A stretch of 64,000 bases of DNA from Narthecium ossifragum (lineage: Eukaryota; Streptophyta; Magnoliopsida; Dioscoreales; Nartheciaceae), in NCBI GenBank assembly GCA_963920575.1, contig OY986969.1, forward strand, positions 20,569,288-20,633,287, written 5' to 3'. Below are positions 7,408 through 44,969 of this stretch, piece by piece. A model generated the notes under the pieces. That model saw only the letters and a list, made by a program, of their open reading frames with translations. It was not told the origin of the DNA and searched no databases. How positions within the stretch are numbered: position 1 is the stretch's first letter; every line of letters begins with the position of its first letter. A program made the position numbers and the translations under genes.

Positions 7408-7466
<59 letters not shown>
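7395..7466. repeat. (CG)n followed by (AT)28 microsatellite
   Basis: A short GC-alternating tract is followed by 56 bases of uninterrupted AT (7411-7466). It abuts the left end of the Mutator-like element exactly. The right flank of that element also begins with an AT run (CTATATATATAAG), so the element inserted into an AT-rich target and the exact target-site duplication is hidden by the repeat. Confidence 0.95.
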
Positions 7467-7468
<2 letters not shown>

Positions 7469-8371
7469 AAATTTTCGGTGACCAACCAGTTCGGTAAGTA
7501 GTGTTACATACCGAATCATGATCCTGACCGTCCGATCCCATCATACGGTCAGGATCGAATATAAGTCCACCGAGGTCAATCGCCCTACCTCCCTCAGTTT
7601 CTTCCTCTACATCTCTGCCCTGCCGACAGTCTCGCCACTACCGCCCTCAAGCGCCCTCAAGCGCCCTCTACCTCCCTCGAGCTTCCACTCCAGCTTCTCC
7701 AAGCTTCGTCACTATCGCCCTCGAGCGCCGTCGATCTCCCCTTCTTCGGCATCACCGATCTCCATCGCCCCTCCCCCCTCGAGCCTCGAGCCTCGAGCGC
7801 CGCGCCGCCCTCGACCTTCCACTCCAGCTCTCAGCTACTCCAAGCTTCGCCACTACCGCCCTCAAGCGCCGTCGATCTCCCCTTCTTCGCCATCACCGAT
7901 CTCCATCGCCCCTCCCCCCTCGAGCCTCGAGCCTCGAGCCTCAAGCGCCGCGCCGCCCTCGACCTTCCACTCCAGCTCTCAGCTACTCCAAGCTTCGCCA
8001 TCACCCGTCACCAGATCGCCGTCCCACCATATCTCCAGGTCGCAACTCCTCCACAGCCACCGCTTCTCCACCGACCATCGTCGCCCCGCGGCCGGCCAGC
8101 CCCCGACCAGAGCTCGCTCCTCTCGCCATGGATGACCCAGAGCTCTTCAAGAGGTGAGATAGAGCAGGATTTTTTGCTAATTTTTCATCACTTTTTTGTT
8201 CTCATCTAGATTTTAGTTCTTCATTCCTTGCGAATGGAATTCCTTTGTATGATTCATAAAAATTAGTTGTCCATTAGTTGTTCATTAGTTGTTCATATCC
8301 ATCAGTACTGTGATTTTAGTTGTTCATATCTTCTAGTTGTTCATTCCTACGTGTATGGAATTCATTCTTTA
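7467..8371 (+). repeat. Left TIR of the MULE, with promoter/leader and first exon of the GRF gene
   Basis: Inverted copy of 13500-14304. It contains Pro/Ser-rich open frames made of about three degenerate repeats of roughly 141-148 bp (AAGCTTCG landmarks at 7701, 7842 and 7990), which I regard as leader sequence. Near its inner end is a 26-bp coding exon, 8128-8153, with ATG in a good context (GCCATGG), encoding MDDPELFK plus two bases, then a GTGAG donor. This exon fits the GRF gene in frame. Confidence 0.88.
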
Positions 8372-9166
8372 TAACTGAATCACATTGCATTAATTTTATG
8401 GGCATATATATGCCGAGCTAGACACTACTAGTGGAAGCAATACAAGTAATGATTTTCTTAGAGATCGCATTGTGGCCATTGCACTGCTCTATTTAGCCTG
8501 TCGAAGTTTCATTTCCTATAACTGAATCGCATTTCCTATAACCTCCATCCATTCCACCAATCTGCATTTGATTGGATGCATTGGTGGCCAGATGCATGTC
8601 GGCGAAATCACCATCGAAGGGGAGTTCCAACCTTAGTGGAGTTTCAGTCACCATGCCGAGGAGGGAATATCACCTCTGTCACTGTGGAGTGAAGGCTGCT
8701 CCGAGGACTTCGTGGACGGCATCAAATCCTGGAAGGAGATTCTTAGGTTGTGCAAACTATCAGGTGAGGAGATTTTTTAGCTTCTTATTGATTTGCCAGT
8801 CATTTCATTTTTCCCCTAAGCTGCTGGTTGTTACAACTAACCCAATCATTTCCCTTTTCCTTGTAGGATGGTGACTGCAACTTCTTCAAGTGGTTTGATA
8901 CGGACGTAGGTGAGCGTGACAAAGATGTTGTTATCAAGGACTTGAGAGATAAGCTGCAAAAAATGAAGACAATGTTGGATTCTTGTTACGCAAAGAAGGA
9001 GAAGGCCATGGTAGATGTGCAAGCCATGAAGAGTTGCATGGCTGATAAAGAAGAGTTAATTGCTGCACTTGAGCTGCAGAATGGTCAATTAAAGTCCAGA
9101 GTTAGAACAAGTTTGATTATTTTGGTGTTGTCTTGGATAGTGGGAATTTTGTTGTTATGTCCCTAG
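8128..9166 (+). CDS. GRF-type zinc-finger protein carried by the MULE
   Basis: Three exons: 8128-8153 (in the TIR), 8592-8763 and 8867-9166. They total 498 bp and encode 165 aa, with GT..AG introns and matching phases. After the shared MDDPELFK start comes a GRF zinc finger at about residues 36-77: CHCG, a Thr/Ser-rich strand, NPGRRFLGC, then CNFFKW. A coiled-coil segment follows, then a hydrophobic C-terminus (SLIILVLSWIVGILLL) that is a likely membrane anchor. GRF fingers bind single-stranded or structured nucleic acid in proteins such as NEIL3, TOP3A and APE2. Small plant GRF proteins with this architecture are common and uncharacterised. An alternative start without the TIR exon exists at 8572. 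Expression from the left TIR, opposite to the transposase, suggests an accessory role in transposition; that is inference. Confidence 0.85.
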
Positions 9167-9387
9167 TTGTTTGGATACTAGGAATTTCTATGCAATTAAT
9201 CAAACATTATGGTCAATTGAGTGTGTACATACAGGAATTTCTCAGCATGAAGAAAGCTATAAGAATGTTTATAAAGCGAAAAAGTATCATATGCGTGTAT
9301 GGTTTGGCTTGTGATGTATTCTGCTCTTCAGACTGGGTCAGCCGATTGTGCACTTTAATATGCGAAAAATCTGGGTTTCTAACAACT

Positions 9388-9830
9388 TGGATCGATCCAA
9401 TATGGGTCTGATGTAGCAGAGAATCATAGTTCTCTGGAAAGGGCTTATGGATCGATCCATTAACTATTTGGATCGATCCAATGTGTACCAGAGAATCATG
9501 GCTCTCTGGAAAAGGATTATGGATCGATCCATTAAGAATCTGGATCGATCCAATATGTACCAAGCTCTCTGGAGAAAGATTTTTGGATCAATCCATTAAG
9601 GATCCGGATCGATCCAATAGTTGACAAAAAGTCTGGCTCTCTGGAAAAGGCTCTAAATTCCTGGATCGATCCAAACCACTTTAAGATCCAAACCACTTTA
9701 AGATCCAATAGTTGACAAAAAGGATCGATCCAATAGTTGACAAAAAGGATCCGGATGATCGATCCAAACCACTTTAAGATCGATCCAAAAATTCCTAGAT
9801 CGATCCAAATGTTCTGGATCGATCCAAATA
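9388..9830. repeat. Array of TGGATCGATCCA palindromes inside the MULE
   Basis: More than a dozen copies of GGATCGATCC or close variants occur in about 440 bp, often spaced by short AT-rich phrases (CATTAAGAATC, AATAGTTGACAAAAAG) and the recurring word CTCTCTGGA. The array lies downstream of the GRF gene and upstream (minus sense) of nothing recognisable. Open frames through it are low-complexity artefacts. Confidence 0.9.
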
Positions 9831-10748
9831 AGGCTGAATCTGTATAATTGATGTCTTTTTGACTCGAAATCGATGCAACTCTCTTCGTAAGCTCTTGTAC
9901 CTGAAACCATATGAAAAGATATTGAAAATGCATTGCTTGAGAGCTAACAAAACCCAATTGAATGGGTGAATTATGTATATTTCGTAACTTATCACCTAAC
10001 ATGATTGCTGTTTGACAAGCCTGCAAGCTTCCTCAGTAGATAATCCCCTTAAATCTTATAGATATGCATATATTTTGGAACCATCTAATAGATATGCAGA
10101 ATACAGGATAAGTACAAATATTCCAACCATTCCTTGTACAAACAACCATTAGGATAAGCACAAATACCACCAAATAGGACATGAAACATACAACCATTCC
10201 TTATACATACAAATTATAAATACAACCATTCCTTGTACATACAAATTATAAATACAACCATTCATTGTACATACATATTAAATGTGTTTGCTCCAAAGAT
10301 TGCAATGAGTCGAAGGAGATCATGAGCTCATCATCTCTGAGAAACTGGCATTTATTGCATCTTCTTCTCGTTCCAAGCAAATCTATCACGTATCCTTTTT
10401 TTTGCTTTCTTCTCGTTCTTCTCGTTTTAGTTTATCATAGGATCCTCCCTGTACATTATTGGTAAATTTCATCTCACTCTTTGAGCATTTTAAACTTTGG
10501 AAAAATTATGAAGATTGGTATAATAGAAATAACTTCAGAGGGAGCATTATCTCACTCTTTGAACAAGGCGAAGAGCTGAAATCCATCGAGCTTGAAATGT
10601 CTCTTGCCAGCTAGCTTTGTTAGTTACTTGGAGTGTTCTTACCAATTCTTCAACAAAAACAAGTTTCAAACAACCATATTCAAGATGAAGCTATGAGACA
10701 GAAGCATAAGAATAAGATGCTATCATCTCATTATATGCTCAAGAATAC
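9831..10748. other. MULE spacer without a recognised gene
   Basis: AT-rich spacer between the palindrome array and the captured exon. On the minus strand, exon-like stretches with acceptors (for example after GTTTCAG near 9900, reading VQELTKRVASISSQKD) may be further captured host pieces. They could not be assigned. Confidence 0.4.
10189..10283. repeat. Three tandem copies of a 32-bp repeat
   Basis: The unit begins ACAACCATTCCTTGTACATA and is repeated with starts near 10190, 10222 and 10254, diverging in the last copy. Confidence 0.85.
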
Positions 10749-10825
10749 CTCTTTATAATGCTACTATCAGTGTTCGCACCATGCTCAACTACCTCTCCAG
10801 TTATCTCATGACCCAAATGTCTGCC
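10749..10825 (-). pseudogene. Captured exon of a zinc-dependent alcohol dehydrogenase
   Basis: The minus-strand peptide GRHLGHEITGEVVEHGANTD followed by SSIIKR lies between a canonical acceptor (TTACAG) and a donor (GTATTC). GHEITGEVVEHG is the catalytic-zinc region of medium-chain Zn-dependent alcohol dehydrogenases, in which the His-Glu pair lies next to the metal site. No other exon of such a gene is visible nearby, so this is a single captured host exon, as in Pack-MULEs. It lies 88 bp downstream of the last transposase donor in the same orientation. Joining the two would shift the dehydrogenase frame and end translation within about eight codons. Confidence 0.72.
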
Positions 10826-10913
10826 CTGTAAGTCATTCAAGAACAGTAATTGAGGAATAAAAGAATTACAAAGCCTAGCTTTTGCAACTTGCAGTTACAG
10901 TTAATATACTTAC

Positions 10914-13710
10914 TGAGTAGAGGATAGTTTCTTTTATCATGTTTCACTCCGCGTTGCTTGCAAGAAGTACAAAGCCTAGCTTTTGCAACTTGCTTCTCCA
11001 ACGTTGACTTCAAGCGCTTCCCACACCCCTTAGGTCTTGGTCTTGCTATATCTGGTTCCTTGATACACAGCTCACTAGTATCCACCATGTTTCCCACACT
11101 TGAGGAAACTTGTAAAATTTCATCATTTTCCACAATTATTTCCACATCCATGACTTTGTCTTTCCTTTTATCTGCTTTCATCTTTTGAATTTGCTCTCTA
11201 ATATCACGTAAACTGCTCATGGCGAACGAGAATGTCTCATTCTCATCAAGTGCGTCATCAATAAGTTGGTTGGCAACATAACTTAACTCAGACCTTTTTG
11301 TCCTGCTAACAGAACAATCATCCACATTTTTCACCCTAACTGTGGCACTCCTTGTCCAACGGTGCTAAATATATTCCCCAGGTAGCATCATGTGATTGAG
11401 ATACTTCAACACAGCTAACAAATGCCTACATGGGATGCCATGGAACTCCAAAAGCTTACATGGCCATTTTCCCATATTTGTTTCCTTACAAATGACAACC
11501 TTTTTTTGGCTTTCTTTTCCTAATTCTTGGATGAGATATACCTTCCCACCCTCATCTTCACCACCAACGAAGATATTATGCGTCAAGCTTGATACAACTT
11601 CTTCTTGGAACTTATAAAAGAGCTTTTTGGTATAAATTTGTGACATTTGTTTCTCTAAAGACCATGCAGTTTTCAGCTTTGGTTGATAATCAATGGTGCG
11701 ATGCTCGTCCTCCAATGCATCTTGTCGCTGCTCTTCAAGACCATTAGTAAACCTTGCATAAAAGTCCAACAAAGTATTCTTTTCAGTGGAGTATTTCTTT
11801 AAGAAACTGTTCAAGCTTTCACTCCTTTGGCTACTATGCATCCCCGCAAAGAAACAATTCTTCAAATAAAGAGGGATCCATTGATTTCTCATTTCATACA
11901 TGCTGGCCAACCAATCATTGTCACTGAGGTGATGTTCTGTTATAATGCTTGCCCAAGTTGCACAAAACTCCTCATCAGTCTCGGTATTCCAAATACATGA
12001 AGTTATTTTCTCAATGACTTCAATTTTATTTTCTATCCCTCCTAACTTCTCAGTCAACTTTTTGGTTATGTGCCAAATACAAAACCTATGACGAGCAAAG
12101 GAAAAAACCTATTCGAAGAAGGAGAGAGGGATTAGAGCAGTGATGAACATGACAGATTGAAGCTAGCTAATATGAGATCATACAAAATAAAATACTCCAA
12201 ATGTATATGCTTTCTATAGGATATTTTCCATGATAAAAACAAAGAGAGAGGAATTGAACCTGATGGATGGCAGCTCTCATTGCAGGATCTTGATCTATTA
12301 TAATTGTGATAGGATGTCTACCACTTGCTTCAAACCAAGTTTCAAACAACCATATAAATGAATCGATGGTTTCATCCTTCATAAAGCCACATCCGAGAAT
12401 CACTGTGTTGAAGTGGTTGTCTATTCCAGAAAATGATGCAAAAATCATCGAATACTTGTTAGTGTTATATGTTGTATCAAATGCTAACACTTCCCCGAAG
12501 TTTCTGCACTGCAATCTGGACTGCACATCCATCCAAAAACAATGTGTCAGCTTGCCCTCCGTATCACATAGAATATTGAAAAGAAACTCGGGACTCTTTT
12601 TTTGCTTTCCTCTGAAAATTTCTAACAGCAACTCTACATCATGCCCTCTAACCTCTTCTCTCATATCCCTCTTCAAATTCCAAGCATCTCTCTTTGTGAA
12701 ACCAATCTTGTCATGTCCTCCACTCTCATTTCGTAGGATTCCCATTGTTTGTGAAATACGGATGTTCACTGACTGGTGATCCTTAAAGAGCCTCTGCTTG
12801 GCTTCAACTATTTTTCGGCGATTTCTAAGGAAATGTCTCCTAGTGGGGGTGCACAACTCGTGATTATGTTCTTCCACAAATTTTCCCACGATATATTGTC
12901 TTGTAGCCATATCCAACTTAAATCGCACCATAGCCTTACAATCAGTCTTTGCCGTGCCACATTTTCTGACCGTCGATCTATCTTCCCACTTACCATGCTT
13001 GTAACAAACCAAGATCCTTTGACTCACCACTCTTTCGTCACTGCCCTTCACATTTTGATTTTTCTTTACATCTTTAGCAAAATCAAATCCAACAGCACAT
13101 GCATATGTTGCATAGAAGCTTTCACACTCATCCAAAGTATTAAAAGTCATACCGATAGTTGGTATTAATTTAGAATCCACCTTTGGCACACCCTTATAAA
13201 CAGTGGCACTCTGACTGCTATCATCAATCTCCCTTGAAACATGATCTGTTGTTTCACTGTCAACTTGGGAACTACATAAAAAAGAATTAACAATGCATCA
13301 GTTATAGTGGAAAGAACTAATAATGCAAGTTACATAGTTCTATTCAACTTGATGGGATATACATCCATTTATTAAAAATTGCATAGAGAATGAATTAATA
13401 TCCATGCAATGTGTTAGGAGAAATAATAAGCAAAATCTTTCTAATGCAATTCTGAATTGAAGAGAACCACAATTGTTTTTCTGATCAACAAAAGAATTTT
13501 TATGAATCATACAAAGGAATTCCATACACGCAGGAATGAACACCTAGAAGATATGAGCAACTAATGGACAACTAATTTTTATGAATCATACAAAGGAATT
13601 CCATCCGCAAGGAATGAAGAACTAAAATCTAGATGAGAACAAAAAAATGATGGAAAATTAGCAAAAAATCCTGCTCTATCTCACCTCTTGAAGAGCTCTG
13701 GGTCATCCAT
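10914..13710 (-). pseudogene. FAR1/FHY3-type MULE transposase, one nonsense codon
   Basis: Exon 1 (13685-13710, 26 bp, in the right TIR) encodes MDDPELFK. Exon 2 is 12260-13271 and exon 3 is 12108 down to about 10914, where a GTAAGT donor implies a further exon. Exons 1 and 2 total 1038 bp and join in phase 0 to exon 3. Exon 2 carries the FAR1 DNA-binding domain (from about residue 45; zinc-ligand region CGTAKTDCKA, then EEHNHELCTP) and the start of the MULE transposase domain, with DTTY and IIIDQDPAMRAAI as expected for acidic catalytic residues. Exon 3 gives RHRFCIWHI, then a SWIM zinc finger (CKLLEFHGIPCRHLLAVLKYL region). An in-frame TAG at 11365-11367 interrupts just before the conserved HRWTRSA motif; the frame then stays open to 10914 with a CxxC C-terminal region. 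The enzyme would bind TIRs and move the element. Here it is probably truncated. Confidence 0.88.
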
Positions 13711-14304
13711 AGCGAGAGGAGCGAGCTCTGGTCGGGGGCTGGCCGGCCGCGGGGTGACGATGGTTGGTGGAGAAGCGGTGGCTGTGGAGGAGCTGCGACC
13801 TGGAGATCTGGTGGGACGGCGATCTGGTGACAGGTGATGGCGAAGCTTGGAGTAGCTGAGAGCTGGAGTGGAAGGTCGAGGGCGGCGCGGCGCTCGAGGC
13901 TCAAGGGGGGAGGAGCGATGGAGATCGGTGATGGCGAAGAAGGGGAGATCGATGGCGCTCGAGGGCGGTAGTGGCGAAGCTTGGAGTAGCTAAGAGCTGG
14001 AGTGGAAGGTCGAGGGCGGCGCGGCGCTCGAGGCTCGAGGGGGGAGGGGCGATGGAGATCGGTGATGGCGAAGAAGGGGAGATCGACGGCGCTCGAGGGC
14101 GGTAGTGGCGAAGCTTGGAGAAGCTGGAGTGGAAGCTCGAGGGCGGTAGTGGCGAGACCGTCGACGGGGCAGAGATGTAGAGGAAGAAACTGAGGGAGGT
14201 AGGGCGATGGACCTCGGTGGACTTATATTCGATCCTGACCGTCCGATCAGAATCGTGGTTTGGTATGTAACACTTACCGAACTGGTTCGCCACCGAAAAT
14301 TTCC
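13500..14304 (-). repeat. Right TIR of the MULE, with promoter/leader and first exon of the transposase
   Basis: Inverted copy of the left TIR. The minus-strand exon 13685-13710 (ATG at 13710-13708) has the same coding sequence as the left-TIR exon and ends in the same donor, but splices to the transposase exon at 13271. The left/right difference in TIR length comes mostly from the number of GC-rich internal repeats. Confidence 0.88.
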
Positions 14305-15551
14305 CTATATATATAAGTTCACCTTCATCTGTAAATAGGAACACATAGGGAAAGAAGAGAGAGGCGTGATGTGATGCGATGCGGGAGAATAACAAGGGGA
14401 ATCCAAGGAGTAGTACCTTCTATATATTTTATTACTCATGACTCCAGCGGCAACGGTGGCCCTTCCCTTTCGTATGGTAAACCGTGAACGAGGAGTCAGA
14501 TGCGGCGGATGAACATGAGTTACAAGGACACGTTGCGGTATGGCGACGGCTCCTCACAAGAGAATGAGTTACAAGGACACGTTGCGGTATGGCGACGGCT
14601 CCTCACAAGAGACATTCGCGCCAGTCGGTTTCTGCTGCTCATTTTGCTTTGTTTTTATGATTCCATCGCAGCTCTATGATTTTGTAATTGTGTGACAATG
14701 CGAGTCATCAAAATAACAAGATTTATTTTTTCTATGCTCAATACAAGATACAGCAACAAAACTGCCTACAAGCTCCAGTCCTAACATCAATTGATGTGCT
14801 TGTTACCCTCTTCCTTCCGTGTGTGGATGTGGACCACTATGGAAATAGTCTTCAATTTGTTGTTAGCTTCCAGTTTATTCTAAGGAAATCAATGTTCTAA
14901 AAACTTTTGTGCTCGTGTTTCCACATGTTCAAAACTCTTGCCCATCACAAGATTCACTACTCGTCTCTCTGCAGATACTCATATCGCAAAAGCTCTTTTA
15001 GAATGAGATTCATCATACAGCCTGCACAGAAGTCCGTGACTCTTTATAATGTTGAATAGCCGCCATTATTCAACAGGAAAAACTTCGTTATCCTATAGCC
15101 GCAGCCACAAGTAAAAAAAGTTCAAAACCTTTCCTCCCTGCTGCAATGCATGGCAACTGCTGATATCACCCAACTCCATACATGTTCTCAACGTCATTTA
15201 CATATTCGAGAATCACGGATATACAAAAACAAATATGAAAAAATGATAATTTTATTGAAAATAAGATTCATTATACATACTGCCACTGGCCACTCGTAAG
15301 AACACAAGCAAGCCCCGAGGATGACTAGCATGAAAAGGAAAAATCACCACGAAACGAACAAGCTAAATAGCAAAATTACCTTTACACAACCACAAATCAT
15401 TACATTGTGCATGTCATAATATTTAACATCAAACAGACCCCAGTGTATCCAGCATGCTTTCATTTGAAAAAAAACCAGATATTGCACATGCTCTCAGAAA
15501 ACACTACATTAGAATTATGGATTGCATTGAAGCAGCCAGTGAAATCAATGA
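14305..15551. other. Intergenic spacer downstream of the syntaxin gene
   Basis: No gene recognised. It holds the right flank of the MULE, a 49-bp tandem duplication (14515-14612) and AT-rich sequence that would include the 3' UTR of the minus-strand syntaxin gene immediately below 15552. A short plus-strand frame at 14688-14900 has no family signature. Confidence 0.5.
14515..14612. repeat. Perfect 49-bp tandem duplication
   Basis: Two adjacent copies beginning ATGAGTTACAAGGACACG start at 14515 and 14564, with no differences seen. It appears to be a recent local duplication. Confidence 0.95.
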
Positions 15552-24397: not shown

Positions 24398-25689
24398 CTG
24401 CCACAAAACAACCTAATCAGAAGAGGTTTATTGAGCAAAACTCGAACCATTTATAACAGGCAATAACAACTTAAAAAATTGCATCTTATGTAAAACAATA
24501 CATGTCAATTGTTTCCACATCAAAATAAAACCCGTCATTGATATCCCATATAGTTTCAAGAAGCTCCCCGTCATTCTAGAAAACTGGACATGGTAATATT
24601 GTTTAAGATTTGGTGCTATATAGTGAAACTTGAAACCATGTACAAAGATTATAAAACCAGCTGTCGAATCGAGCTCCACAAATAATTGATTTCACAAAGA
24701 AAGGTTTGTAACAAAGGCAGCCTATGTAGCTATACTATTCAAAAACAGAAAATAACATGAATGCTATTTTGAATAAAGCAATTGTGGCTTGAATGATGAT
24801 TTATAGCAAGCATTTTCTTCAAATATTTAAGTTACCATACCTGAATAGCAATAAGTGCATTATTGTCACCAAATTATCACTGATCTATCGATTAGTTATA
24901 CGCAATAATAAGAGTGTTATTTTTGACAAAGCAATTGTAGCAAGTATTTTCTTAAAATAACTACATTTCCATCCATGGCAATCAATAAGTGCATTATTCC
25001 AACCAAATATTCACAAATCTAAGGACGAGTTATCTGCTATCTCCACAAGATAGTGGTAAACCATCACAAAGATTGTCCGCAGCACAATTCGAGGTATCAA
25101 GCTCATGAAAGTTGAATATTTTCATTGTATGCAAATGCTCGACCCATCATCAAGAATTTTTTTGAAACTAAGCTAACAATCTATAATTGCAGCAGCTCCA
25201 AATACTTCTCGGTCCATCAATGAAACTATCATAAGGGTTGGAGACCTAAGCCAAATAAAATAGAAAGCTTATTCAACTCGTAATGGTCAGAGACATCCAG
25301 CCTCACACACTTGCAAATGCCTTAAATGCCAAAACACACCGAACCATGATGCATTCCCAACCAAGAAATGGCCGCAAACAACAAATCTTGAAAGTCGATG
25401 ACTAACATAAAGAATCCAGTGTAATACTTTACCTAAATTCCGATTCGCGAGAATCACAGTTGAGATATTCATCGCCAACAACAATCAAGGCAGGGAATGG
25501 CATAAAGAGGGATTGGCACCGAAGTCTTCAATCCCAATTCATCTATCCTGCTATTCAGAGCGATTGGTTCTGGAATATGTTCCCATAATCAGTTATGATA
25601 ACAACAGGAGAGGATCACTGGAAAAAGTGGATGAATAGAAAGAAAAGAAAAAAGAGAAAGGGGGATGATAAAGAAGGCGTTAGCTGGCA

Positions 25690-25877
25690 GATTCTCGCAG
25701 AGCTCGGGGGTGTCCTTGGGCGTCCCAAGGGTGTTAATGAGCCTCTAGAAGGTGGATACGGAGGTATTGATCTGACAAAACCTCGGAGGTGACCGCATGC
25801 GTTGGGACCTGCTTCCCGTTTATCAGATCCCTCCGCCCCGCCAGCGGCCGCCCCAATTCCAAATCTTCCAAGCTCAT
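25690..25877 (-). pseudogene. SYP22 exon 1 copy in unit A
   Basis: It keeps ATG and [21 protein letters not shown], then carries the 1-bp insertion shared by all tandem units (CAAAACC for AAAACC on the plus strand), which shifts the frame after the ASG position. The donor GT is changed, so it could not splice as exon 1. Confidence 0.92.
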
Positions 25878-27232
25878 CTCTCCCTTCTTGATAAGGCAGG
25901 AGAAATCCTAAATCTATGAGGGCTTCACCGATCTGAGACAGGAGGCGGCGTCGACGATCATGATCTCTTGGGCTTCAAGAAAGGAGCGGGCGATCGAGAA
26001 CCGACAATTATGGGAAAGGTAACATAAATATAGAAGCTGACGGGACGTGGGTTGTTCTTGTGATAAATTTAGAAAGAGAGAGAGAGAAGGGAGAAGGGAG
26101 AAGAGAAGCGGGTTCTAATTAATTTCTAAATCGATTGTATATAACGTGGGGTTTTGTAACCGATTTTTAGACATAAGAAGAGAAGCCATAATTAATTAAT
26201 TAAGATTAATTGCAAAGGAGTCGGAAAGACGGAGGCAAATTGTCACGCCCCAGCCCAATTAAAACCAAATTATCCCAAAATTACCGAAAATTTCAACATG
26301 ACCCTTGGACACAGACACGTGAGAACACAATTTACAATCATCCGACCACTAATATCACACAATTTGACATACATCATTAATTTTTTTTCAACAATTGAAA
26401 TCCCAGGGGACACTTTCGCCCTATACATACATCACAATTACCATACGCAATAATAAGAGTGCTATTTTCGACAAAGAAATTGTAGCAAGTATTTTCTTGA
26501 AATAACTACGTTTCCATCCCTGGCAAGCAATAAGTGCATTATTCCAATCAAATATTCACAAATCTAAGGATGAGTTATCTGCTATCTCCGCAAGATAGTG
26601 GTTAACCATCACAAAGTTTGTCCGCAACACAATTCTAGGCCTCAAGCTCAAGAAAGTTGATTATTTCCACTCTATGCAAATGTTGGACCTGTCATGAAGA
26701 ATTTTTTTGAAACTATGGTAACAATCTATAATTGCAGTAGCTCCAAATACTTCTTGGTCCATCAATGAAACTATCATAAGTGTCGGAGACATAAGCTAAA
26801 TAAAACACAAAGCTTATTCAACTCGCAATGGTCGGAGACATCCAGCCTCACACACGTGCAAATGCCTTGGTTGCCAAAACACACCGAACCATGATGCTTT
26901 CCCAACCAAGAAATGCTCGCAAACAACAAATCTTGAAAGTCAATGACTAACACAAAGAATCCAATGTAATACTTCACCTAAATTCCGATTCGCGAGCATC
27001 ACAGTTGAGATATTTATCACCAGCAACAATCAAGATAGGGAATGGCATAAAGAGGGATTGGAACCTAGTCTTCAATTCCAATTCATCTATCATGCTATTC
27101 AGAGCGATTGGTTCTAGAATATGTTCTCATAATCAGTTATGATAACAACAGGACAGGAGCACCGGAAAAAGTGGATCAATAGAAAGAAAAGAAAAGAGAC
27201 AAAGGGGGATGATAAAGAAGGCGTTAGCTGAT

Positions 27233-27421
27233 AGTTTCGGGCGGAGCTCGGGGGTGTCCTTGGGCGTCCCGAGGGTGTTAGCGAGCCTCTAGAAGGTGGA
27301 TACGGCGGTATTGATCTGGCAAAACCCCGGAGGCGACCGTCTGCGTCGGGACCTGCTTCCCGTTTATCAGATCCTTCCGCCCCACGAGTAACCGCCCCGA
27401 TTCCAGATCTTCCAAGCTCAT
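27233..27421 (-). pseudogene. SYP22 exon 1 copy in unit B
   Basis: It carries the shared 1-bp frameshift and the C-to-T change that gives CTAGAAGG on the plus strand. The donor GT is lost (ATCAGC on the minus strand). The leader, with its ACCCTAACCCTACGAGGG word, follows directly. Confidence 0.92.
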
Positions 27422-28252
27422 CTCTCCCTTCTTGATAAGGTAGGAGAAACCCTAACCCTACGAGGGCTTCACCGATATGAGACAGGAGGCGGTGCTGATG
27501 ATCAGGATCTCTTGGGCTTCAAGAAAGGAGCGGGCGATCGAGAACCGACAATTATGGGAAAGGTAATAGAAATATAGTAGCCGACGGGACGCGGGTTGTT
27601 CTTGTGATAGATAGATAGATAGATTATAGGAAAAAATGCTAAATTTAGAAAGAGAGAGAGAAGAGAGAAGAGAAGCGGGTTCTAATTAATTTCTAAATCG
27701 ATTGTATATAACGTGGGGTTTTGTTGCTGATTTTTAGACAGAATAAGAGAAGCAATAATTAATTAATTAAGATTAATTACAAATAAGTCGGAAAGACGGA
27801 GGAAAATTGTCACGCCTCGCCCCAATTAAAACCAAATTATCCCAAAATTACCAAAAATATCATCATCACCCTTGGGCACGGGCACGTGAGAACACAATTT
27901 ATAATCTTCCAACCACTAATATTACACAATTTCACATACATCAATAATTATTTTTCAACAATTGAAATCCCAGGGGACACTATCGCCCCATACATACATC
28001 ACAATTACCAAACGCAATAATAAGAGTGTTATTTTCGACAAAGCAATTGTAGCAAGTATTTTCTTGAAATAACTACGTTTCCATCCATGGCAAGCAACAA
28101 GTGCATTATTCCAACCAAATATTCACAAATGTAAGGACGAGTTATCTGCTATCTCCGCAAGATAGTGGTAAACCATCACAAAGTTTGTCCGCAGCACAAT
28201 TCTAGGTCTCAAGCTCATGAAAGTTGAATATTTCCACTGTATGCAAATGCTC

Positions 28253-30434
28253 TGTGAGGACCTGTCCCTCTACTCTTGTGGCTCGTTGTGGACCGCAAGG
28301 GCAATTTGGTAAATTGCGACTTGTCGGCTTGCTTCACACCCGCGTGTGCACCCACTGACCTTGGTTGTGTTAGCGTTTGATTAGAACGGTTAGTTTGACC
28401 CGGGATCGAAAGATCCGGGCTTGGGCTTGAGTTCTTGCCAAAGTCTAGCTTTCTGTACAAATGAGATCGATCTTCTTTGGCTAAGAGATCGATCCCCTTT
28501 GTGCCCGAAAGTCAAGCTCTGATCGTCATGCGAGATCGATCTCGCTTGAGGGGAGATCGATCCCGCATAGGTTGGTTCGTTCGCCTATAAAGCGGACGTG
28601 GCGGATTTCCTTGAATCCTTTTGAAATCCGTGGATCTTGAGCTCAAATTTGGGGATTTTGAGAGTGATTGAGGACGATCCAAAGCCTAGGAGTTGGGATT
28701 GAAGCTGCTCTTGTCTAGGTAGGGATCCTACCTATAAGTTTTCCGGGTTTTTGGAAGTTTTCTGCTTTGATTGTGATCTTTTGCTTAGATCTGTTAAAAT
28801 ACATGTTGGTTTTCCATGCTATCAACGGTTTTGGACTCGTGGTCTTTCGTACTACCATATCCCAGAGTTTTGTAGGGTTTGGTAGAGTTTTCCGGCGGTA
28901 TTTCTCGCCGTCTGGCCACCGGTGAACCCATTCAGATCGATCTCGTGAGGTCAGATCGATCTTTTGTGGGGCGTCACGCCCAGCCCGAGCGAGAGAGATC
29001 TTCCGGTGGGGAAGATCGATCTTTTCTTGGCTGACGTCGACGGGTCCCGGGTCACAAATCAGATCGATCTTTCTGTGAATGAAGATCGATCTCTTTTGGC
29101 TTGACTAGGACGGGAACTCCCAAACTCTAAAAAGATCGATCTCGTTGGTAAAGGAGATCGATCTCTTTAGTGCAGGGAAGAGTTTTCAAGTGGCTTTTGT
29201 CGTGGGGCTTTGTATGTCGGTTTTCTTTATCATTTTATATCTGATACATACTGTTAAGCATGTTAGCCCTATAATAGGGGCAGTGGTGAACCGGTGGAGT
29301 GATGACTCCCAGGATGTTTAGAATAAACGGGCGGGTAGCCCTACAGCTTTCCCTAGCCTTACATGCCGGCGTGCGCCGAGGGCTTTATCTGTGTTGTCTA
29401 TGAGCTGTTGTTTGTGGAGCTGCTTCCCGATGCAGGTGTTGCTTGTGAACGGGCTGGCAGTTGGTGTGGTACCACTACAGCCGTTCCTGACCTTACTTTA
29501 TGTTCACCACCCCGGGCCGGCAGGGTGCCGTGCCCAGACCTTGTTTAATGCTATCATCACATATTGCTGCATGCTTATTTGTTTTATCTACGTGTGATCA
29601 TAGCATGCATTGATTGTGCATTAGTTGCATAAGGATAGGGCGTGGGTGATGGGTTGATCGCCGATCCGGGGCTTTCGGGTAGCTCGGATCTAGCTCTAGG
29701 ACAGTGGCGGGTAGCGTGGTCCAGGTTTTGATTTGTAGTATTCAGTCGACATCGATGATAGGCTTAGATGACTTGAATACGTGTTGTTTGATGTTTAGAG
29801 GTCGTGTCGGCCTCGAGTCGAGTTCTGAGGTGTAGTCGGTGTCCGGTGATCTTCGACTCTTGAGTGGAGGGTGTGCCTACTCAGCGGTGTCATTTCCTGC
29901 CAGCAGTGTCGGTTTTCTGCTGTGAGTCAGCAGTGCTCTTAGCCTGCGTTCAGGGACACACGGTGGGGTTATGAGACCCCTGTATACACCTAGGCTTTGC
30001 TCGAGGGCGACACTGTTGTGTTCCCTCCCTTTGTGTGTGTCGTAGTGTAGTTTCCCTGCTGAGCTTAGTGCTCACTCCTATCCGGGCTGCGTTTTGCAGG
30101 TGCTGGCGCTAGCTCTTTTTCGGTCGCCCCTACCTGGCAGGTCTTTGGTGGCGCGGCGGTGTCTGGCGGTGCTTGAGGAGCGGCGATCCCTGTGTACCCT
30201 TTTTGGTTAGATAGTTTCCTACGGGAGTGATGTATAATATGTTAAACCCCTTTTTGAGAATATGTATTATTATATTCAATTTGAGGTTGTGTTAATTGTT
30301 GTAATTTAAGGGTATTTATGAATTGCTAGGGAGACCACTAGGTTAGAGGGAAACCTCGCCAAAATTTTCGCAGTTTGTTAGGTTTTCGTTCGTGTCACCA
30401 GCCCGGTTGGGCCTACGCAGGTCGGGGAGCGACA
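28253..30434 (+). mobile_element. Solo LTR, 2.18 kb, Tekay-like family, inserted in unit C
   Basis: It begins TGTGAGGACC and ends GCGACA, flanked by the direct repeat TGCTC (28248-28252 and 30435-30439), which interrupts the array phrase GCAAATGCTCGACCC exactly. The start and the CCGGGCTGCGTTTTGCAGG region resemble the LTRs at 52772, 53066 and 61100. No coding region is present; short frames inside are not genes. Confidence 0.93.
28463..29168. repeat. GAGATCGATCTC palindrome array in the solo LTR
   Basis: About ten copies of AGATCGATCT or close variants occur, often in pairs 10-20 bp apart (GAGATCGATCTCGCTTGAGG, then GAGATCGATCCC). They lie both before and after the probable promoter region of the LTR. 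Confidence 0.9.
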
Positions 30435-30987
30435 TGCTCGACCCATTATGAAGAATTTTTTTGAAACTAAGGTAACAATCTATATTTGCAACAGCTCCAA
30501 ATACTTCTCGGTTCATCAATGAAACTATCATAAGGGTCGGAGACCTAAGCCAAATAAAACAGAAAGCTTATTCAACTCGCAATGGTCGAAGACATCCAGC
30601 CTCACACACGTGCAAATGCCTTGGTTGCCAAAACACATCAAACCATGATGCATTCCCAACCAAGAAATGCTCGCAAACAACAAATCTTGAAAGTCGATGA
30701 CTAACACAAAGAATCCAGTGTAATAGTTCACCTAAATTCCGATTCACGAGCATCACGATTGAGATATTCATAGCTAGCAACAATCAAGGCAGGGAATGGC
30801 ATAAAAAGGGATTGACACCTATATCTTCAATTCCAATTCATCTATCCAGCTAGTTAGAGCAATTGGTTCTGTAATATGTTTCCATAATAAGTTATGATAG
30901 CAACAAGAGAGCAGCACAGGAAAAAGTGGATGAATAGAAAGAAAAGAAAAAAGAGAAAGGGGCATGATAAAGAACGCGTTAGCTGAT

Positions 30988-31176
30988 AGTTTCTTGCGGA
31001 GCTTGGGGGTCTCCTTGCGCATCCCAAGGGTGTTAACGAGCCTCTAGAAGGTGGGTACGGTGGTATTGATCTGGCAAAACCCCGGAGGCGACCGCCTACG
31101 TCGGGACATGCTGCCCGTTTTTCATATTCTTCCGCCCCGCCTGTGGCCGCCCCAATTCTAGATCTTCCAAGCTCAT
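30988..31176 (-). pseudogene. SYP22 exon 1 copy in unit C
   Basis: It has the shared 1-bp insertion, CTAGAAGG variant and lost donor GT, plus further private changes (GCGCATCCCAAGG, ACATGCTGCCCG). Confidence 0.9.
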
Positions 31177-32448
31177 CTCTCCTTTCTTGATAAGGCAGGA
31201 GAAACGCTAACACTACGAGGGCTTCACCGATCTGAGACAGGAGGTGGCGCCGAAGATCAGGATCTGTTGGGCTTCAAAAAAGGAGTGGGCGATCGGGAAC
31301 CGACAATTATGGGAAAGGTAAAAGAAATATAGAAGCCGATGGGACGCGGGTCGTTCTTGTGAGAGATAGATAGATAGATTACAGGAAAAAATGCTAAATT
31401 TAGAGAGAACGAGAGAGAAGAGAGAAGAGAAGCGGGTTCTAATTAATTTCTAAATCGATTGTATATAACGTGGGGTTTTGTTGCCGATTTTTAGAAATAA
31501 GAAGAGAAGCAATAATTCAATCATTAAGATTAATTGCAAAGGAGTCGGAAAGACGAAGGCAAATTGTCAAGCCTCGCCCCAATTAAAACCAAATTATCCC
31601 AAAATTACAGATAATTTGAGCATGACCGTTGGGCACGGGTACGTGAGAATAAAATTTACAACATGCCAACCACTAATATTACACAATTTGACATACATCA
31701 ATAATTTTTTTTTCAACAATTGAAATCCCACAGGACACATTCGCCCCAAATATACATCACACTTACCATACGCAATAATAAGAGTGTGATTTTCGACAAA
31801 GCAAAGGTAGCAAGTATTTTCTTTAAATAACTAAGTTTCCATCCCTGGCAAGCAATAAGTGCATTATTCCAACCAAATACTCACAAATCTAAGGACAAGT
31901 TATCTGCTATCTCCGCAAGATAGTGGTAAACCAACACAAATTTTGTCCGCATCACGATTCTAGGTCTCAAGCTCATGAAAGTTGAATATTTCCACTATAT
32001 GCAAATGCTCGACCCATCATCAAGAATTTTTTTGAATCTAAGGTAACAATCTATAATTGCAGCAGCTCCAAGTACTTCTCGGTCCATCAATGAAACTATC
32101 ATAAGGGTCGGAGACCTACACCATATAAAATAGAAAGCTTAGTCAACTCGCAAGGGTCGAAGACATCCAGCCACACACACGTGCAAATGCCTTGGTTGCC
32201 AAAACACATGGAACCATGATGCATTCCCAACCAAGAAATGCTCGCAAACAACAAATCTTGAAAGTCGATGACTAACACAAGGAATCCAGTGTAATACTTC
32301 ACCTAAATTCCGATTCGCTAGCATCACAGTTTAGTTATTTATCACCAGCAACAATCAAGGCAGGGAATGGCATAAAGAGGGATTGGCACGTAAGTCTTCA
32401 ATTCCAATTCATCTATCCTGCTATTCAGAGCGATTGGTTCTGGAATAT

Positions 32449-34137
32449 TGATGATGATGCATAATGTTATATTTTTATCCCTTAATACTTAGTCTCCTGT
32501 GCTTATTTAGTTCCTAAATACACTCATTATTCTTATATTTTGATTTAGGATGCAATTGAAGTCCTTAAGTCGAAAAGAAGCTGAAAAGAGTGCATGGATC
32601 AAATTTAAAGATTTATCTGTACCTGCTCATGAAGCACCAGAGGATGTATCATATATGGTTGGAAAGCTCTTGAAGTCTAGATTCTGGAGAATTTTACGGT
32701 TCATGATTCCGAGTTTCCTAGATGAAGTTACGGCAATTTTAGTACCGATGGCGCAGTCTGGATGGCAGAACAGTAATAAGCTGAACAGTCCGATCGATCC
32801 AACACCCAGGGTCCGATCGATCCAACACCCAGGGTCCGATCGATCGGACTATGCAGAATCGTGACAGAACATGTATTTTTTGGCTGAACATAGTCCGATC
32901 GATCGAACCATCAATCCTAATGAGCCAGATCGATCCGACTCCTAGAGTTGGATCGATCGGACTAGGGAAATGTTAGAAATTGCAGATTTTTATGAGCCAA
33001 ATCGATCGGACACCTAAAGTTCGATCGATCGGACTCAAACATACCCAGAGAAGGTGGATTTTTACGCATCCGATCGATCCAGCGCCCATAGTTCGATCGA
33101 TCGGACTCGGGCGTAAATAGAAGTTGAAGAGTTTAATGAGACTGATCGATCCAGCACGCCGAGAAGGATCGATCGGGCTTTCCCAGTAACGAAAATCAAC
33201 GATTGTGATCTAATCCGAGGGTGGATACACTTGAGGCTATAAATAAGACTCTTTCTAGGGTTTGAGGGGGGATTCTTGGACACTTTTGGCTGCTCTTTCT
33301 CCTCCTTTATATTTTTTCTAGGTTTTCTTTTGCTTTATGAAATCTTTTGGAGGATTGTTCTTGATGGTCCTGCGTGGCTAAATCTTGATTCTTGGTCGAG
33401 AAAACTGAAACCTCGGAATCAATGAAACTGTGAGATCTAATTTATTTTTATTGTTCAGTTTATACATGAGTATTGGATATTCTTCTGAGATTAAATCTTT
33501 ATGATTACCTTGTCTAATTGCTAGGAGGCCTAGTAGTTTATTATTCATGGTGATCTACTGCTAGGTTTGATATCAAATCCGGAATTGTTTGATCCCTCTA
33601 ATCTGCGAAGCAACTAGGATCTAATAATTTACTGCTGATCAGATTTTGTTAGATCTTAGGAAGAATATTCAACTAGATTAAATGCAACCGCTTGTGCTTG
33701 TGTTGTTTAGCTTCATCGATCTCCCTATTCTTAACGCTGCTACTAGATTAAATCTACAGCGCTTGTCTTAGGTTGTTTAGTAGTTAGGGTTGATTAGATC
33801 GCTTGTTTCTAATTAACTAAGATTGAGGAGAGATTCGAATTGAATTCGGACGGTGAATATTCATGGTATAAATTGATTAATACTTGCATCTATGATCAGT
33901 TGTTGGATTCCGATGGTGGATGTTGACTAAGACCAAGGTTTGTTCTATTGATTCGACTTGTTTCTTCGCTTTAGATTATTTGTTTATTGTTTTTCCTCAC
34001 GTTTAAAACCCCCCATCTTTGTTCACTAAGCACAAAACAAGACTGAACACTCTTCGTGGGATCGACTCGTACTCGCACTACTACATTTATTTTAACGAGT
34101 ACTGGATTTATTTTTGAGTGCCTGCGACAGCACATCA
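32449..34137 (+). repeat. 5' LTR of the Athila-type element
   Basis: 1,689 bp, from TGATGATGATGC to GCACATCA. It holds the palindrome array at 32789-33178, a TATA-like GGCTATAAATAAG near 33233-33245 and a plausible transcription start after it. Frames inside are not genes. Confidence 0.9.
32789..33178. repeat. CCGATCGATCGGA palindrome array in the 5' LTR
   Basis: About ten copies of CGATCGATCC/GGATCGATCG variants, upstream of the TATA-like box. One 23-bp unit is duplicated relative to the 3' LTR (41567-41933), so the array changes by unit gain or loss. Confidence 0.92.
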
Positions 34138-34142
34138 AATTT

Positions 34143-34160
34143 TGGCGCCGTTGTCGGGGA
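34143..34160 (+). other. Primer-binding site of the Athila-type element
   Basis: TGGCGCCGTTGTCGGGGA lies five bases after the LTR end. This is the standard PBS form in plant Athila/Tat elements, usually read as complementary to the 3' end of tRNA-Asp. Confidence 0.88.
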
Positions 34161-34282
34161 GTGATTCTAGTTGATTTTTGTGTTTATTGTGATCTTTATT
34201 TTCATAAAAAAAATAAAAAAAAGAGTTATTCGAATTTTCTTGATTTCTTTTTCTCGTTTTGCCGGAATTCTCTTGATTGTTT

Positions 34283-37200
34283 ATGAGTATAGCTCGATCT
34301 TTTAATCAAGGTGATTTGCAGTACGATCCAGAAATAGAAAGAACTCTGCGCAGGTTAAGGAGAGAAGCTCGGATAAATCCTGAGGAGGACGATTTGGCTC
34401 TTGATCACGTATTTATCAGTGATTCGGAATTAGAAGAGGAAGAAGTCTCTTGATCACGTATTTATCAGTGATTCGGAATTAGAAGAGGAAGAAGTCATGG
34501 CCGGAAATCGGACTTTGAAAGAACTTGCAGCCCCAGATTTGAATCAACAACCCTTATGCATTACATTCCCTACTTTGGATGTTGCTACTAGTTTTGAATT
34601 AAAATCTGGACTAATACACCTCTTACCTACTTTTCATGGACTTTCAGGTGAGGATCCTCACGAGCATTTAAAGGAGTTTCATGTTGTGTGCACAAGTATG
34701 AAACCCATGGGGGTGACTGAAGATCAAATCAAATTGAGAGCCTTTCCATTTTCTTTGAAGGATTCGGCTAAAGATTGGCTTTATTATTTACCATCTGGGA
34801 GTATTACCACATGGAACGAGATGAAGAGGTTGTTTTTAGAGAAGTATTTTCCAGCCTCAAGAGTGGCCAACATTAGGAAAGAGATCTGTGGTGTGAGGCA
34901 ACATAATGGAGAATCTCTACATGAATATTGGGAACGTTTTAAGAAATTATGTGCAAGCTGTCCCCATCATCAAATTAGTGAGCAATTACTTATTCAATAT
35001 TTTTATGAGGGCTTACTAATCAATGACAGGAGTATGATTGATGCCGCTAGTGGAGGAGCTTTGGTGGATAAAACTCCTGAAGCCGCGAGGAACTTGATTG
35101 CAAATATGGCAGCTAATTCTCAACAATTTAATACTAGGCTTGATTCTTATTCGAAACATGTTAATGAGGTAAATGTTTCATCTCTTGAACAACAGATTGC
35201 GAGTCTAACTTCTCTTGTTCGTCAAATGGCTGTAGGTAACATGCAAACAGCGAAGGTTTGTGGAATTTGTTCGGTGGCGGGACATCCAACTGATATGTGC
35301 CCAACTCTTCAAGAGGAACCCATTGAACAAGTAAATGCAGCTGGGAGTTTCCCAGGACCACCGCAAAGGAAGTATGATCCCTATTCAAACACGTATAATC
35401 CGGGATGGAGGGATCACCCCAATCTCAACTATGGGAATCCACAAGTAAATCAGCCTACAACTCAATTTCGTCCGACTGGACAGCAATATCAACAATATAG
35501 ACCGCCATACCCCCCGAGACAACAACCAAACCCAACTCATGATTCTGGTATGTCTTTAGAAGATATGGTTAAATATCTTGTTACTAATAATTCGCAAATT
35601 CAACAGGAGACGAAGGCTAGTATTCAAAGATTGGAACATCATGTGGGCCAGATGGCGTCAGCAATTAGCAAGCTAGAGGCGCAAAATTCGGAAAAATTAC
35701 CCTCTCAAACGGTAATAAATCCAAGAGAGAATGCAAGTGCAATCATTTTGAGAAGTGGTAAAGAAATTGAGACTCCAATCAAGGAAATTCCTGCATCTTC
35801 TCTGCAAGGAAACGAGCAAGACATCGTCGCGGACAAAATCTTTCCCGATGACGACGACGTACCTAAACGTAAGTTTCCACCTCTTTCTGATTATAAACCT
35901 GTACTTCCTTTTCCTCAGGCTTTGACAGAATCAAGAAAATATGAGAAGAATTCAGATCTATATGAGACTTTTCGCCGATGCGAGTTAAATATTCCACTCT
36001 TAGATGCTCTTAAACAAGTACCTCGTTATGCTAAATTCTTGAAGGAATTGTGCACAATTAAGAGGAAGCAGAAACTTAAAGGATGTGAGAAGGTGAAAGT
36101 AGGGGAAAATGTTTCTGCAATTCTTCAAAAAAAAATTCCTACAAAGTGTAGGGATCCAGGTATGTTTACTATCCCATGTACAATTGGTAACACCAAATTT
36201 GAGAAAGACATGTTAGATTTGGGAGCTTCTATCAATGTCATGCCATATTCTATATATTCTTCTTTAAAACTTGGGTCTTTGAATGAAACTGGTGTTGTGA
36301 TTCAATTGGCTGACAGATCTAACGCCTATCCTAAAGGTGTAGTTGAAGATATTCTTGTGCAGGTCAATGATTTAGTTTTCCCTGTTGATTTTTATGTGCT
36401 TGATATGGAGAATGGTGATCATAGTACTCCTATTTTGTTGGGAAGACCTTTCTTGAAGACATCCAAGACTAAGATAGATGTCCATAGTGGCACACTTACC
36501 ATGGAATTTGATGGTGAAACTGTTAAGTTTAATATATATGATGCCATGAAATATCCTGCTGATGATTGTTCAGTGTATTCAATTGATGTGATTGATTATT
36601 TATCACATGAAGTTTTTGAACTTAGTGATAAAGATGAATTGGAAGTGGCTATTAGCAAATCTCTTGAGGAAGAAAATGAGGAGCTATCTTTGAGTACTAA
36701 TTTGCAGGAAACTGTTGCAATACTGAATGATTTTTCGATAATTCAGCAATCAGGTAATGATTCTTCTAGTTCAATACTTGTATCTAATGAGAAATCATTA
36801 CCTTCTGAATTACAAGCACCTAATCCAGATCTGAAACCTCTTTCTAATCATCTTAAATATGTTTTTCTTAGAGATGAAGGAGTGTTACCAGTGATTATTT
36901 CCAATAACCTTAGTGCACCACAGGAAGAAAAACTTGTGCAGGTTCTTAAGGAGCATAAGACAGCTATTGGTTGGACAATTGCAGACATCAAGGGAATCAG
37001 CCCGAGTACATGTATGCATCGTATCTTGCTTGAAGAGGGAGCGAAACCTTCCCGCCAACCACAAAGAAGGTTAAATCCGCCCATGATGGATGTTGTAAAG
37101 AAGGAGATCCTCAAACTGCTTGAAGTTGGAGTGATCTATCCTATTTCGGATAGCACTTGGGTTAGTCCAGTTCAAGTTGTTCCTAAAAACACAGGAATAA

Positions 37201-39725
37201 CCGTGGTGAGAAATCACAAAGATGAGTTAGTTCCCACCCGTGTGCAAAATGGGTGAAGGGTTTGTATTGATTATAGAAAATTAAATGCTATAACCCGCAA
37301 GGACCACTTCCCTTTACCTTTTATTGATCAGATGCTTGAAAGATTAGCTGGTCATTCTTATTATTGTTTTCTTGATGGTTATTCAGGTTACTTTCAGATT
37401 GCAATTGCCCCTGAAGATCAGGAAAAGACGACGTTCACATGCCCATTTGGAACTTTTGCATATCATCGCATGCCTTTTGGTCTTTGCAACGCCCCAGCTA
37501 CTTTCCAAAGGTGTATTGTTAGTATATTCTCAGATTATATTGAACAGATCATAGAGGTTTTTATGGATGATTTCACAGTTTATGGAAACTCTTTTGATAA
37601 TTGTTTACATAACCTTACACTTGTTCTTCAAAGATGCATAGAAACTAGCATTGTGTTAAATTCTGAGAAATGTCATTTCATGGTTGAACAAGGTATAGTT
37701 TTGGGTCATGTTATTTCATCTAAAGGAATTGAGGTTGATAAAGCTAAAGTTGATGTCATTCAATCTTTACCTTATCCCACTAGTGTGCGGGAAGTTCGTT
37801 CTTTTCTTGGACATGCAGGTTTTTACCGAAGATTCATCAAGGACTTCTCTAAAATAGCATTACCGTTATGCGCGTTGTTACAAAAGAATAAGGTTTTTGA
37901 GTTCGATGATGCATGCAAAGAGGCATTTGATAAACTGAAAGAATTATTGACTTCAACCCCAGTTATTCAGCCCCCAGACTGGAGCGTTCCTTTCGAGATA
38001 ATGTGTGATGCAAGTGATTATGCAGTGGGCGCAGTTTTGGGTCAAAAGATTGGAAGAGCTTCTCATGCAATTTACTATGCTTCCAAGACTTTGGATGATG
38101 CCCAGAGAAATTATTCTACAACTGAAAAAGAACTTTTAGCCGTTGTGTTTGCTTTAGAAAAATTTCGTTCTTATTTACTTGGTACTAAAGTCATTGTTTA
38201 TTCTGATCATGCAGCCCTTCGTTATTTAATGACGAAGAAGGAGGCAAAGCCGAGATTAATACGATGGATACTTCTCTTTTGTGAATTTGATTTGGAGATA
38301 AAAGACAAAAGAGGAACAGAAAATCGAGTTGCAGATCATCTGAGTCGATTAGTTCATGTGGAGGATAAACTTCGTCTACAGGAAACATTCCCTGATGAAC
38401 AATTGTTTTCTGCAACTGTGACATTACCTTGGTATGCAAATATTGTGAATTATTTGGTTACTAATATGTTACCTTCTGATTTGTCTAAGGCTCAAAGAGA
38501 TAAGATTAAAAGTGATGCTAAATATTATGTGTGGGATGACCCATATTTATGGAAGCATTGTGCAGATCAAGTAATAAGAAGATGCGTTCCTGAAAGTGAA
38601 ATTATTTCTATACTCACTTTTTGTCATTCTTATGCTTGTGGAGGTCACTTTGGAGTTAAGAGAACGGCCAGAAAAGTGTTAGAATGTGGTTTTTATTGGC
38701 CTTCTTTATTTCGAGATTCATACTCTCTTTGTAAGTCATGTGAGAATTGTCAGAAGACAGGAAATATATCCCAAAGGAATGAGATGCCACAAACCCCCAT
38801 ATTATTTTGCGAAATTTTCGATGTTTGGGGCATTGATTTCATGGGTCCGTTCCCTATATCTTTTGGTTATGTTTATATTCTACTTGCTGTGGATTATGTT
38901 TCAAAATGGGTAGAAGCTAAAGCTACCAGGACTGATGATTCTAATGTTGTTGCAGATTTTATCAAGTCTAACATATTATCCAGGTTTGGAATTCCAAGAG
39001 CTTTCATAAGTGATCGAGGCACGCACTTTTGCAATCGAACTGTGGAGGCCTTGCTAAGGAAGTACCATGTGACCCATAAGGTGTCAACCGCCTATCATCC
39101 GCAAACTAGTGGACAAGCGGAAGTGTCAAATCGAGATATCAAGTCCATCATTGAAAAGACGGTAAATCCAAATAGAAAAGATTGGAGTTTGCGTTTGGAT
39201 GATGCGTTGTGAGCATATAGGACTGCATATAAGACACCCATCGGTATGTCACCTTATCGCTTGGTATTTGGGAAACCATGTCACCTTCCAGTTAAGTTAG
39301 AACATAAAGCTTATTGGGCTATCAAGAGCTTTAATATGAACGTGGATGAGAGTGGAGAACACAGGAAGTTGCAACTGCAAGAATTAGAGGAAATTCGCAA
39401 TGATGCCTATGAGAGCGCTAGGATTTATAAGGAAAAGACAAAAGCTTTTCATGATAAGATGATCTCTAGAAAGGAGTTTAAAGTTGGTCAAAAAGTTCTC
39501 CTTTACCAATTACGCTTACGTTTGTTTCCAGGTAAGTTGCGTTCTCGTTGGATTGGACCTTTTATTGTTACTAATGTTTTTTCTCATGGTGCAGTTGAAA
39601 TTCAAAGTTTAGCCACTTCCAAAATGTTTACGGTGAATGGCCATCGACTTAAACCTTTCTATGAAGGCGTTCCAACAGAAAAGTTGGAAAAATTGGACCT
39701 TGAGGAATCAACTTATACTGATTAA
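34283..39725 (+). pseudogene. Athila-type gag-pol polyprotein with three lesions
   Basis: The probable start is the ATG at 34283. A 49-bp tandem duplication (34399-34447 and 34448-34496) shifts the frame and gives a stop; the long frame resumes at 34497 with ATG. In that frame, gag has a CX2CX4HX4C zinc knuckle near residue 255 and a protease motif DLGASINVMP near residue 571. Reverse transcriptase runs across a TGA at 37254-37256 into the frame 37332-39212, with FMDDF at about 37564, RNase H ([13 protein letters not shown]), and integrase with an H-C zinc region, [20 protein letters not shown] and [11 protein letters not shown] second TGA at 39210-39212 is followed by the integrase C-terminal part (39246-39725). 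Both TGA codons stand where the family has Trp. The protein would drive reverse transcription and integration of the element. Confidence 0.9.
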
Positions 39726-42884: not shown

Positions 42885-42999
42885 AATTTTTTCCCATAAT
42901 CAGTTATGATAACAACAGAAGAGGAGCACTGGAAAAAGTGAATGAATAGAAAGAAAAGAAAAAAGACAAAGGGGGTTGATAAAGAAGGTGATAGCTGAC

Positions 43000-44927: not shown

Positions 44928-44969
<42 letters not shown>

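Follow-up and report, generated by a model that had tools for sequence, protein, structure and literature searches.

Can the terminal inverted repeats (TIRs) of a Mutator-like element (MULE) supply the genes between them with a translated start as well as with a promoter? Both the presence of promoters in MULE ends and the uptake of host genes by MULEs are known, and the question is raised by a 6.84-kb element in Narthecium ossifragum (Dioscoreales, Nartheciaceae). The element lies at positions 7467–14304 (or 14305) of the window, by which we mean the whole 64,000-nt stretch of DNA analysed (assembly GCA_963920575.1, contig OY986969.1, forward-strand positions 20,569,288 to 20,633,287). An earlier note on this DNA had proposed that the two TIRs carry the same short first coding exon, joined on the left to a gene for a GRF zinc-finger protein and on the right to a gene for a FAR1-type transposase. 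The reading we favour, and in which we place slightly more belief than doubt, is that of a two-gene TIR MULE whose TIRs would have been extended over the first coding exon, with both predicted proteins starting with MDDPELFK.

The exon, ATGGATGACCCAGAGCTCTTCAAGAG, is 26 bp long and lies at 8128–8153 on the plus strand and at 13685–13710 on the minus strand. Its copies were found, as the earlier note had reported, to be inverted and identical, each encoding MDDPELFK plus two further nucleotides, and each followed by the same donor (AG/GTGAGAT) and intron start. On the left, joining it to 8592–8763 and 8867–9166 gives a predicted GRF gene of 498 bp and 165 aa that ends in a stop codon. On the right, joining it to 13271–12260 gives 1038 bp in phase 0, and the frame continues into a third exon from 12108. 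Both joins are in frame as claimed, and Pfam identified the GRF domain on the left and the FAR1 and MULE domains on the right. Two acceptors would both fall in the right phase by chance about once in nine.

Upstream of the exon, each arm contains a TATA-like box (TATAAG) at the same place (7560–7565 on the plus strand and 14222–14227 on the minus strand), for which a promoter role may be proposed. The leader from this box to the exon ATG is C-rich and free of ATGs in both arms; in the left arm, the sole other ATG upstream of the exon (7518) precedes the box. The exon ATG has G at −3 and G at +4 in both arms, and a purine at −3 with G at +4 makes a good start context.

The inverted repeat itself is far beyond chance, and arms of 0.8–0.9 kb are the long TIRs of the MULE superfamily. 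The left TIR spans 7467–8366 (plus), with ungapped homology up to 8285 and an additional block at 8316–8366; the right TIR spans 13514–14304 (minus), and base 14305 may also belong to it. The longest match pairs 7917–8285 with 13553–13921 (369 nt, 95% identity). Further matches pair 7769–7940 with 13884–14055, 7665–7815 with 14002–14152 and 7540–7652 with 14135–14247, and the outermost block pairs 7456–7499 with 14272–14315. Aligned end to end, the arms differ by 35 substitutions over 795 columns and by six indel blocks within the alignment, each 3 to 42 nt long. This divergence of 4.4% would correspond to about 1.7 My if we assume a grass rate of 1.3e-8 and no gene conversion. The left end of the element reads GGAAATTTTCGG and the right end GGGAAATTTTCGG. 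A candidate 9-bp target-site duplication, TATATATAT, flanks it at 7458–7466 and 14306–14314; the left copy is ambiguous, since it sits within an AT microsatellite, and as a sign of target duplication the pair counts for little. The leader of each arm contains an internal tandem repeat with 134–148 bp spacing (7665–8005 and 13833–14146). An irregular tandem array of GGATCGATCC-containing units (9380–9830) lies between the two convergent genes.

The transposase presents the stronger of the two cases. Spliced through 12108–11365, this minus-strand gene encodes 593 residues with a FAR1 domain, a MULE domain and a partial SWIM finger. Exon 2 (12260–13271) contains the FAR1 domain (PF03101, E 2e-13, residues 60–149) and most of the MULE domain (PF10551, E 1.7e-27, residues 270–363, profile positions 1–99 of 99), while exon 3 up to an in-frame TAG (11365–12108) contains the end of the MULE domain and a degraded SWIM finger. 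The MULE domain is that of the MULE superfamily, and a FAR1 domain placed before it is characteristic of the FAR1/Jittery clade. The SWIM finger, which is usual for the clade and not defining, scored 19.2 bits, just under the Pfam cut-off of 19.6. The three acidic DDE residues, which we take to be those in FDTTY, IDQDPAM and QRSES, are all present.

A search with the transposase protein yielded 124 proteins. The best listed was an Asparagus FRS5-like protein (43% identity), and many of those listed were named FAR1-RELATED SEQUENCE 5-like. The counts given here refer to 120 listed homologues of the 124, and their N-termini are those of database gene models. The first in-frame ATG of exon 2, at 13150, corresponds to residue 50, 10 residues ahead of the Pfam FAR1 match. 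This residue was covered by 77 of the 120 homologues, 70 of which reached at least 10 residues further upstream (median 42), whereas one extended 3–9 residues and six extended 0–2 residues. The longer homologues and the lack of an earlier in-frame ATG in exon 2 make an upstream coding exon likely, and the sole candidate identified is the TIR exon. The acceptor at 13271 has 15 pyrimidines in 20 positions, with 14 T in the 22 bases preceding exon 2, and is the richest in pyrimidines among the in-phase sites (17 AGs listed on the right side); the site at 13263 also has 15 of 20, but is out of phase. Taken together, the homologue N-termini, the ATGs of exon 2 and the strong acceptor support the prediction that the TIR exon is the true start of the transposase.

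A start at 13150 would retain the whole Pfam FAR1 match, and the six homologues that begin no more than two residues away are a point in its favour. Such a start belongs to an account in which the TIR exon is coding on neither side: transcripts would begin in the first intron or where the TIR ends on its inner side, translation of the transposase would start from 13150 and the open reading frame (ORF) of the exon would be incidental. In line with this, the unspliced exon encodes only MDDPELFKR followed by a stop, and in the maize elements TED and Jittery, according to the available part of the source, the cDNA starts with an untranslated 5' region near the inner end of the TIR (PMC9569675). 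The 70 homologues that reach further upstream speak against it, as do two out-of-frame ATGs in exon 2 (13242 and 13224) that precede 13150. We consider this account improbable.

For the GRF gene, on the plus strand, the TIR exon is a plausible start too, with weaker support than on the transposase side. The GRF finger (Pfam, E 3.7e-10, residues 36–78, profile positions 1–44 of 45) spans the junction of exons 2 (8592–8763) and 3 (8867–9166); the latter encodes the rest of the finger, a charged middle, a hydrophobic C-terminal stretch (residues 147–165, mean Kyte–Doolittle value 2.45) and the stop. Several features of this side weigh against a start in the TIR. The acceptor at 8592 is weak (9 of 20 pyrimidines), and the out-of-phase sites at 8497 (14 of 20) and 8507 (13 of 20) are richer and would lead to products of 16 and 14 residues. 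Five of the 17 AGs listed on the left (8592, 8625, 8637, 8661 and 8664, the last two with 11 of 20 pyrimidines) are in phase with the open frame, and an in-frame join would arise by chance about once in three. Exon 2 moreover offers this frame an ATG of its own 5 nt in, at 8596, from which MSAKSPSKG... would be read.

These features fit a rival explanation in which the TIR exon starts the transposase only, the GRF protein starts from the ATG at 8596 or from a transcript initiated at an internal promoter, and the left join is in frame by coincidence. If leader and exon are part of the GRF mRNA, however, the exon AUG comes first, and if they are not, initiation at 8596 would be disfavoured because an out-of-frame ATG at 8592 precedes it. 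We regard this rival as unlikely, though of appreciable weight. The earlier note's claim that the TIRs provide promoter, leader and N-terminus to both proteins was thus borne out in part: a TATA-like box, the leader, the exon and the donor do lie within both TIRs and in frame, and the transposase start is supported, but the GRF start is less secure.

Several other results also count against a shared coding exon. A DDPE- or PELF-like motif was found in the first 150 residues of none of the 120 listed transposase homologues, so MDDPELFK is not a conserved part of the listed FAR1 proteins. A protein search with the GRF product gave 24 candidates, none at E 1e-3, and the window contained no second copy of the element. 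Viral contigs, in which plant DNA is hardly expected, yielded no match to the exact DNA pattern, three pattern-matching stretches for transposase exon 3 (none confirmed) and 23 stretches for the GRF query (none confirmed). Use of the exon as the coding start of two genes is a prediction read from the DNA.

Two candidate signs of selection were rejected. In dinucleotide-preserving shuffles of the core leader, 0.38 ATGs were expected on the left and 0.51 on the right, and none occurred in 65% and 57% of the shuffles, respectively. The dinucleotide make-up thus predicts the missing ATGs, which cannot be read as a mark of selection; because C-rich dinucleotides predict it, the ATG-free leader is consistent with a translated start without proving it. 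When the 35 substitutions were placed randomly, a given 26-nt stretch was spared in 31% of the simulations, a 57-nt stretch such as that from the ATG on was spared in 6.7%, and some run of at least 57 nt was present in 98%. The identity of the exons was therefore not significant as a sign of selection or conversion.

The copy also bears damage that the earlier note did not report, nor did it report the in-frame ATG at 8596. The transposase frame is interrupted after the SWIM region by the TAG at 11367–11365 and then remains open and homologue-like for 175 codons (10837–11364, minus strand), aligning with the C-terminal part of homologous transposases and giving no separate Pfam match. Trp stands in place of the first SWIM cysteine at a position that is Cys in all 13 chosen homologues, and a cysteine in what we take to be a C-terminal knuckle is replaced by Tyr (Cys in 9 of 9 aligned, out of the same 13). 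Because of the stop and the two substituted cysteines, this copy of the element is probably not autonomous.

This decay is compatible with a further explanation, which could hold alongside the others: the element would be a degenerate composite in which the GRF gene, captured from the host (as in Pack-MULEs), does nothing for the element, and in which the extension of the TIRs has produced the shared exon incidentally. The decayed transposase fits this view, as does the result that none of the 24 candidates marks the GRF gene as a regular partner. On the other side, the GRF frame is unbroken across its three exons and matches nearly the whole domain profile, in a copy whose transposase is damaged. 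The arrangement of two convergent genes also recalls MuDR, and genes captured by MULEs are usually fragments. In our judgement, this explanation is rather unlikely, and we return to a two-gene MULE with a shared start as the preferred reading.

Under that reading, the TIRs would have expanded inward beyond promoter and leader until they also covered the first coding exon and the beginning of intron 1. The TATA-like boxes suggest that transcription would proceed inward from each arm. Ribosomes would presumably start at the AUG of the arm, given its purine at −3, G at +4 and position as the first AUG past the box. One common donor would serve two acceptors, one per side. The two proteins translated from the convergent mRNAs, a FAR1/MULE transposase and a GRF protein whose C-terminus is hydrophobic, would then both start with MDDPELFK. 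Since the transposase has more need of the exon and a strong acceptor to join it to, the transposase gene was most likely its first owner. Extension of the repeat would then have carried the exon into the other arm, possibly through repair that used the opposite arm as its template, and the copy seen is now decaying.

How far this departs from known elements can be judged against MuDR, whose TIRs contain the transcription start sites and hold the promoter and leader, in the available part of the source (PMC3440606). In MuDR of maize, two convergent genes (mudrA and mudrB) are each transcribed inward from a TIR promoter, and the ORF layout of the element described here is likewise convergent, with inward transcription predicted. 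The MuDR TIRs are, however, about 215 bp long and are described with a promoter and start site and no coding exon, whereas those in N. ossifragum measure 0.8–0.9 kb and include one. The second gene of the present element is of the GRF type. Jittery and FAR1 represent one clade, as stated in the accessible text (PMC3903597), and Jittery was found to have an extra spliced exon upstream of its predicted exon 1 (PMC9569675, in part). Jittery and TED are TIR MULEs like the present element, but their TIR part is untranslated, and the accessible descriptions include no second gene sharing it. An untranslated leader borne by a TIR is thus already known from MuDR, TED and Jittery. The earlier note knew of no MULE with a shared coding exon in its TIRs, and we likewise found no translated TIR-borne leader serving two genes in the accessible portions of the open-access literature (including PMC2563033), to which that statement is confined. 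A survey of MULE diversity describes elements with a second ORF and TIRs of 14–500 bp, and the words 'GRF' and 'exon' are absent from its available text (PMC6446971). In an Asteraceae comparative study, GRF-type and SWIM-type fingers are named together among notable domain families, beside (retro)transposon domains (PMC10359422, in part); this listing hints, if only faintly, that transposons may carry GRF genes along.

The transposase shares the FAR1, MULE and SWIM layout of the FAR1, FHY3 and FRS proteins, which are domesticated MULE transposases, and differs from them in lying inside a TIR-bounded element. The GRF finger weakly matches the solved NEIL3 fingers (7jl5, E 2.1e-05), with only the small finger in common. 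Among other inverted repeats, the plastid gene ycf1 straddles a repeat boundary, with its 5' part duplicated on the other side and the second copy usually a pseudogene. In the present element, unlike ycf1, both exon copies are predicted to be spliced to a gene.

The window as a whole is inferred to be plant nuclear DNA rich in transposons. Some 0.2 kb beyond the element's right end lies a perfect 49-bp tandem duplication (14515–14612). A long terminal repeat (LTR) retrotransposon, probably of the Ty3 type, occupies 32442–42890; its LTRs (32442–34143 and 41221–42890) are 97% identical, and its gag (34434–37256) and pol share one reading frame that is interrupted by two stops. A search with a retrotransposon polyprotein yielded 7309 proteins, and the 120 listed among them were 61–79% identical to the query and came mostly from named angiosperms. 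Repeated blocks flank it on both sides (24898–32448 and 42885–45805), in aligned pieces of 0.2–2.5 kb with about 82–95% identity. Other fragments of retrotransposon polyproteins, with integrase zinc-binding and reverse transcriptase domains, were found at 51267–52346 and 60134–61297.

The new part, if transcripts confirm it, would be a translated start exon that is borne by the TIRs and serves two genes. Junction reads on RNA would be a direct test of the shared start at its two junctions. More tentatively, and with less than even confidence, we suggest that the TIR acts as a portable start cassette, consisting of core promoter, AUG-free leader, start codon, coding exon and donor, which could give any gene between the arms a translated start, here two unrelated genes. 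Exchange between the arms, as proposed in the earlier note, might then keep the N-termini of the transposase and its helper identical, which would amount to a concerted evolution of the starts of two proteins, built into the ends of the element. If this is true, the N-termini of two unrelated proteins are tied to the repeats of the element, and ends that supply a start codon and a donor would explain how captured sequence can be converted in one step into a translated chimeric gene.

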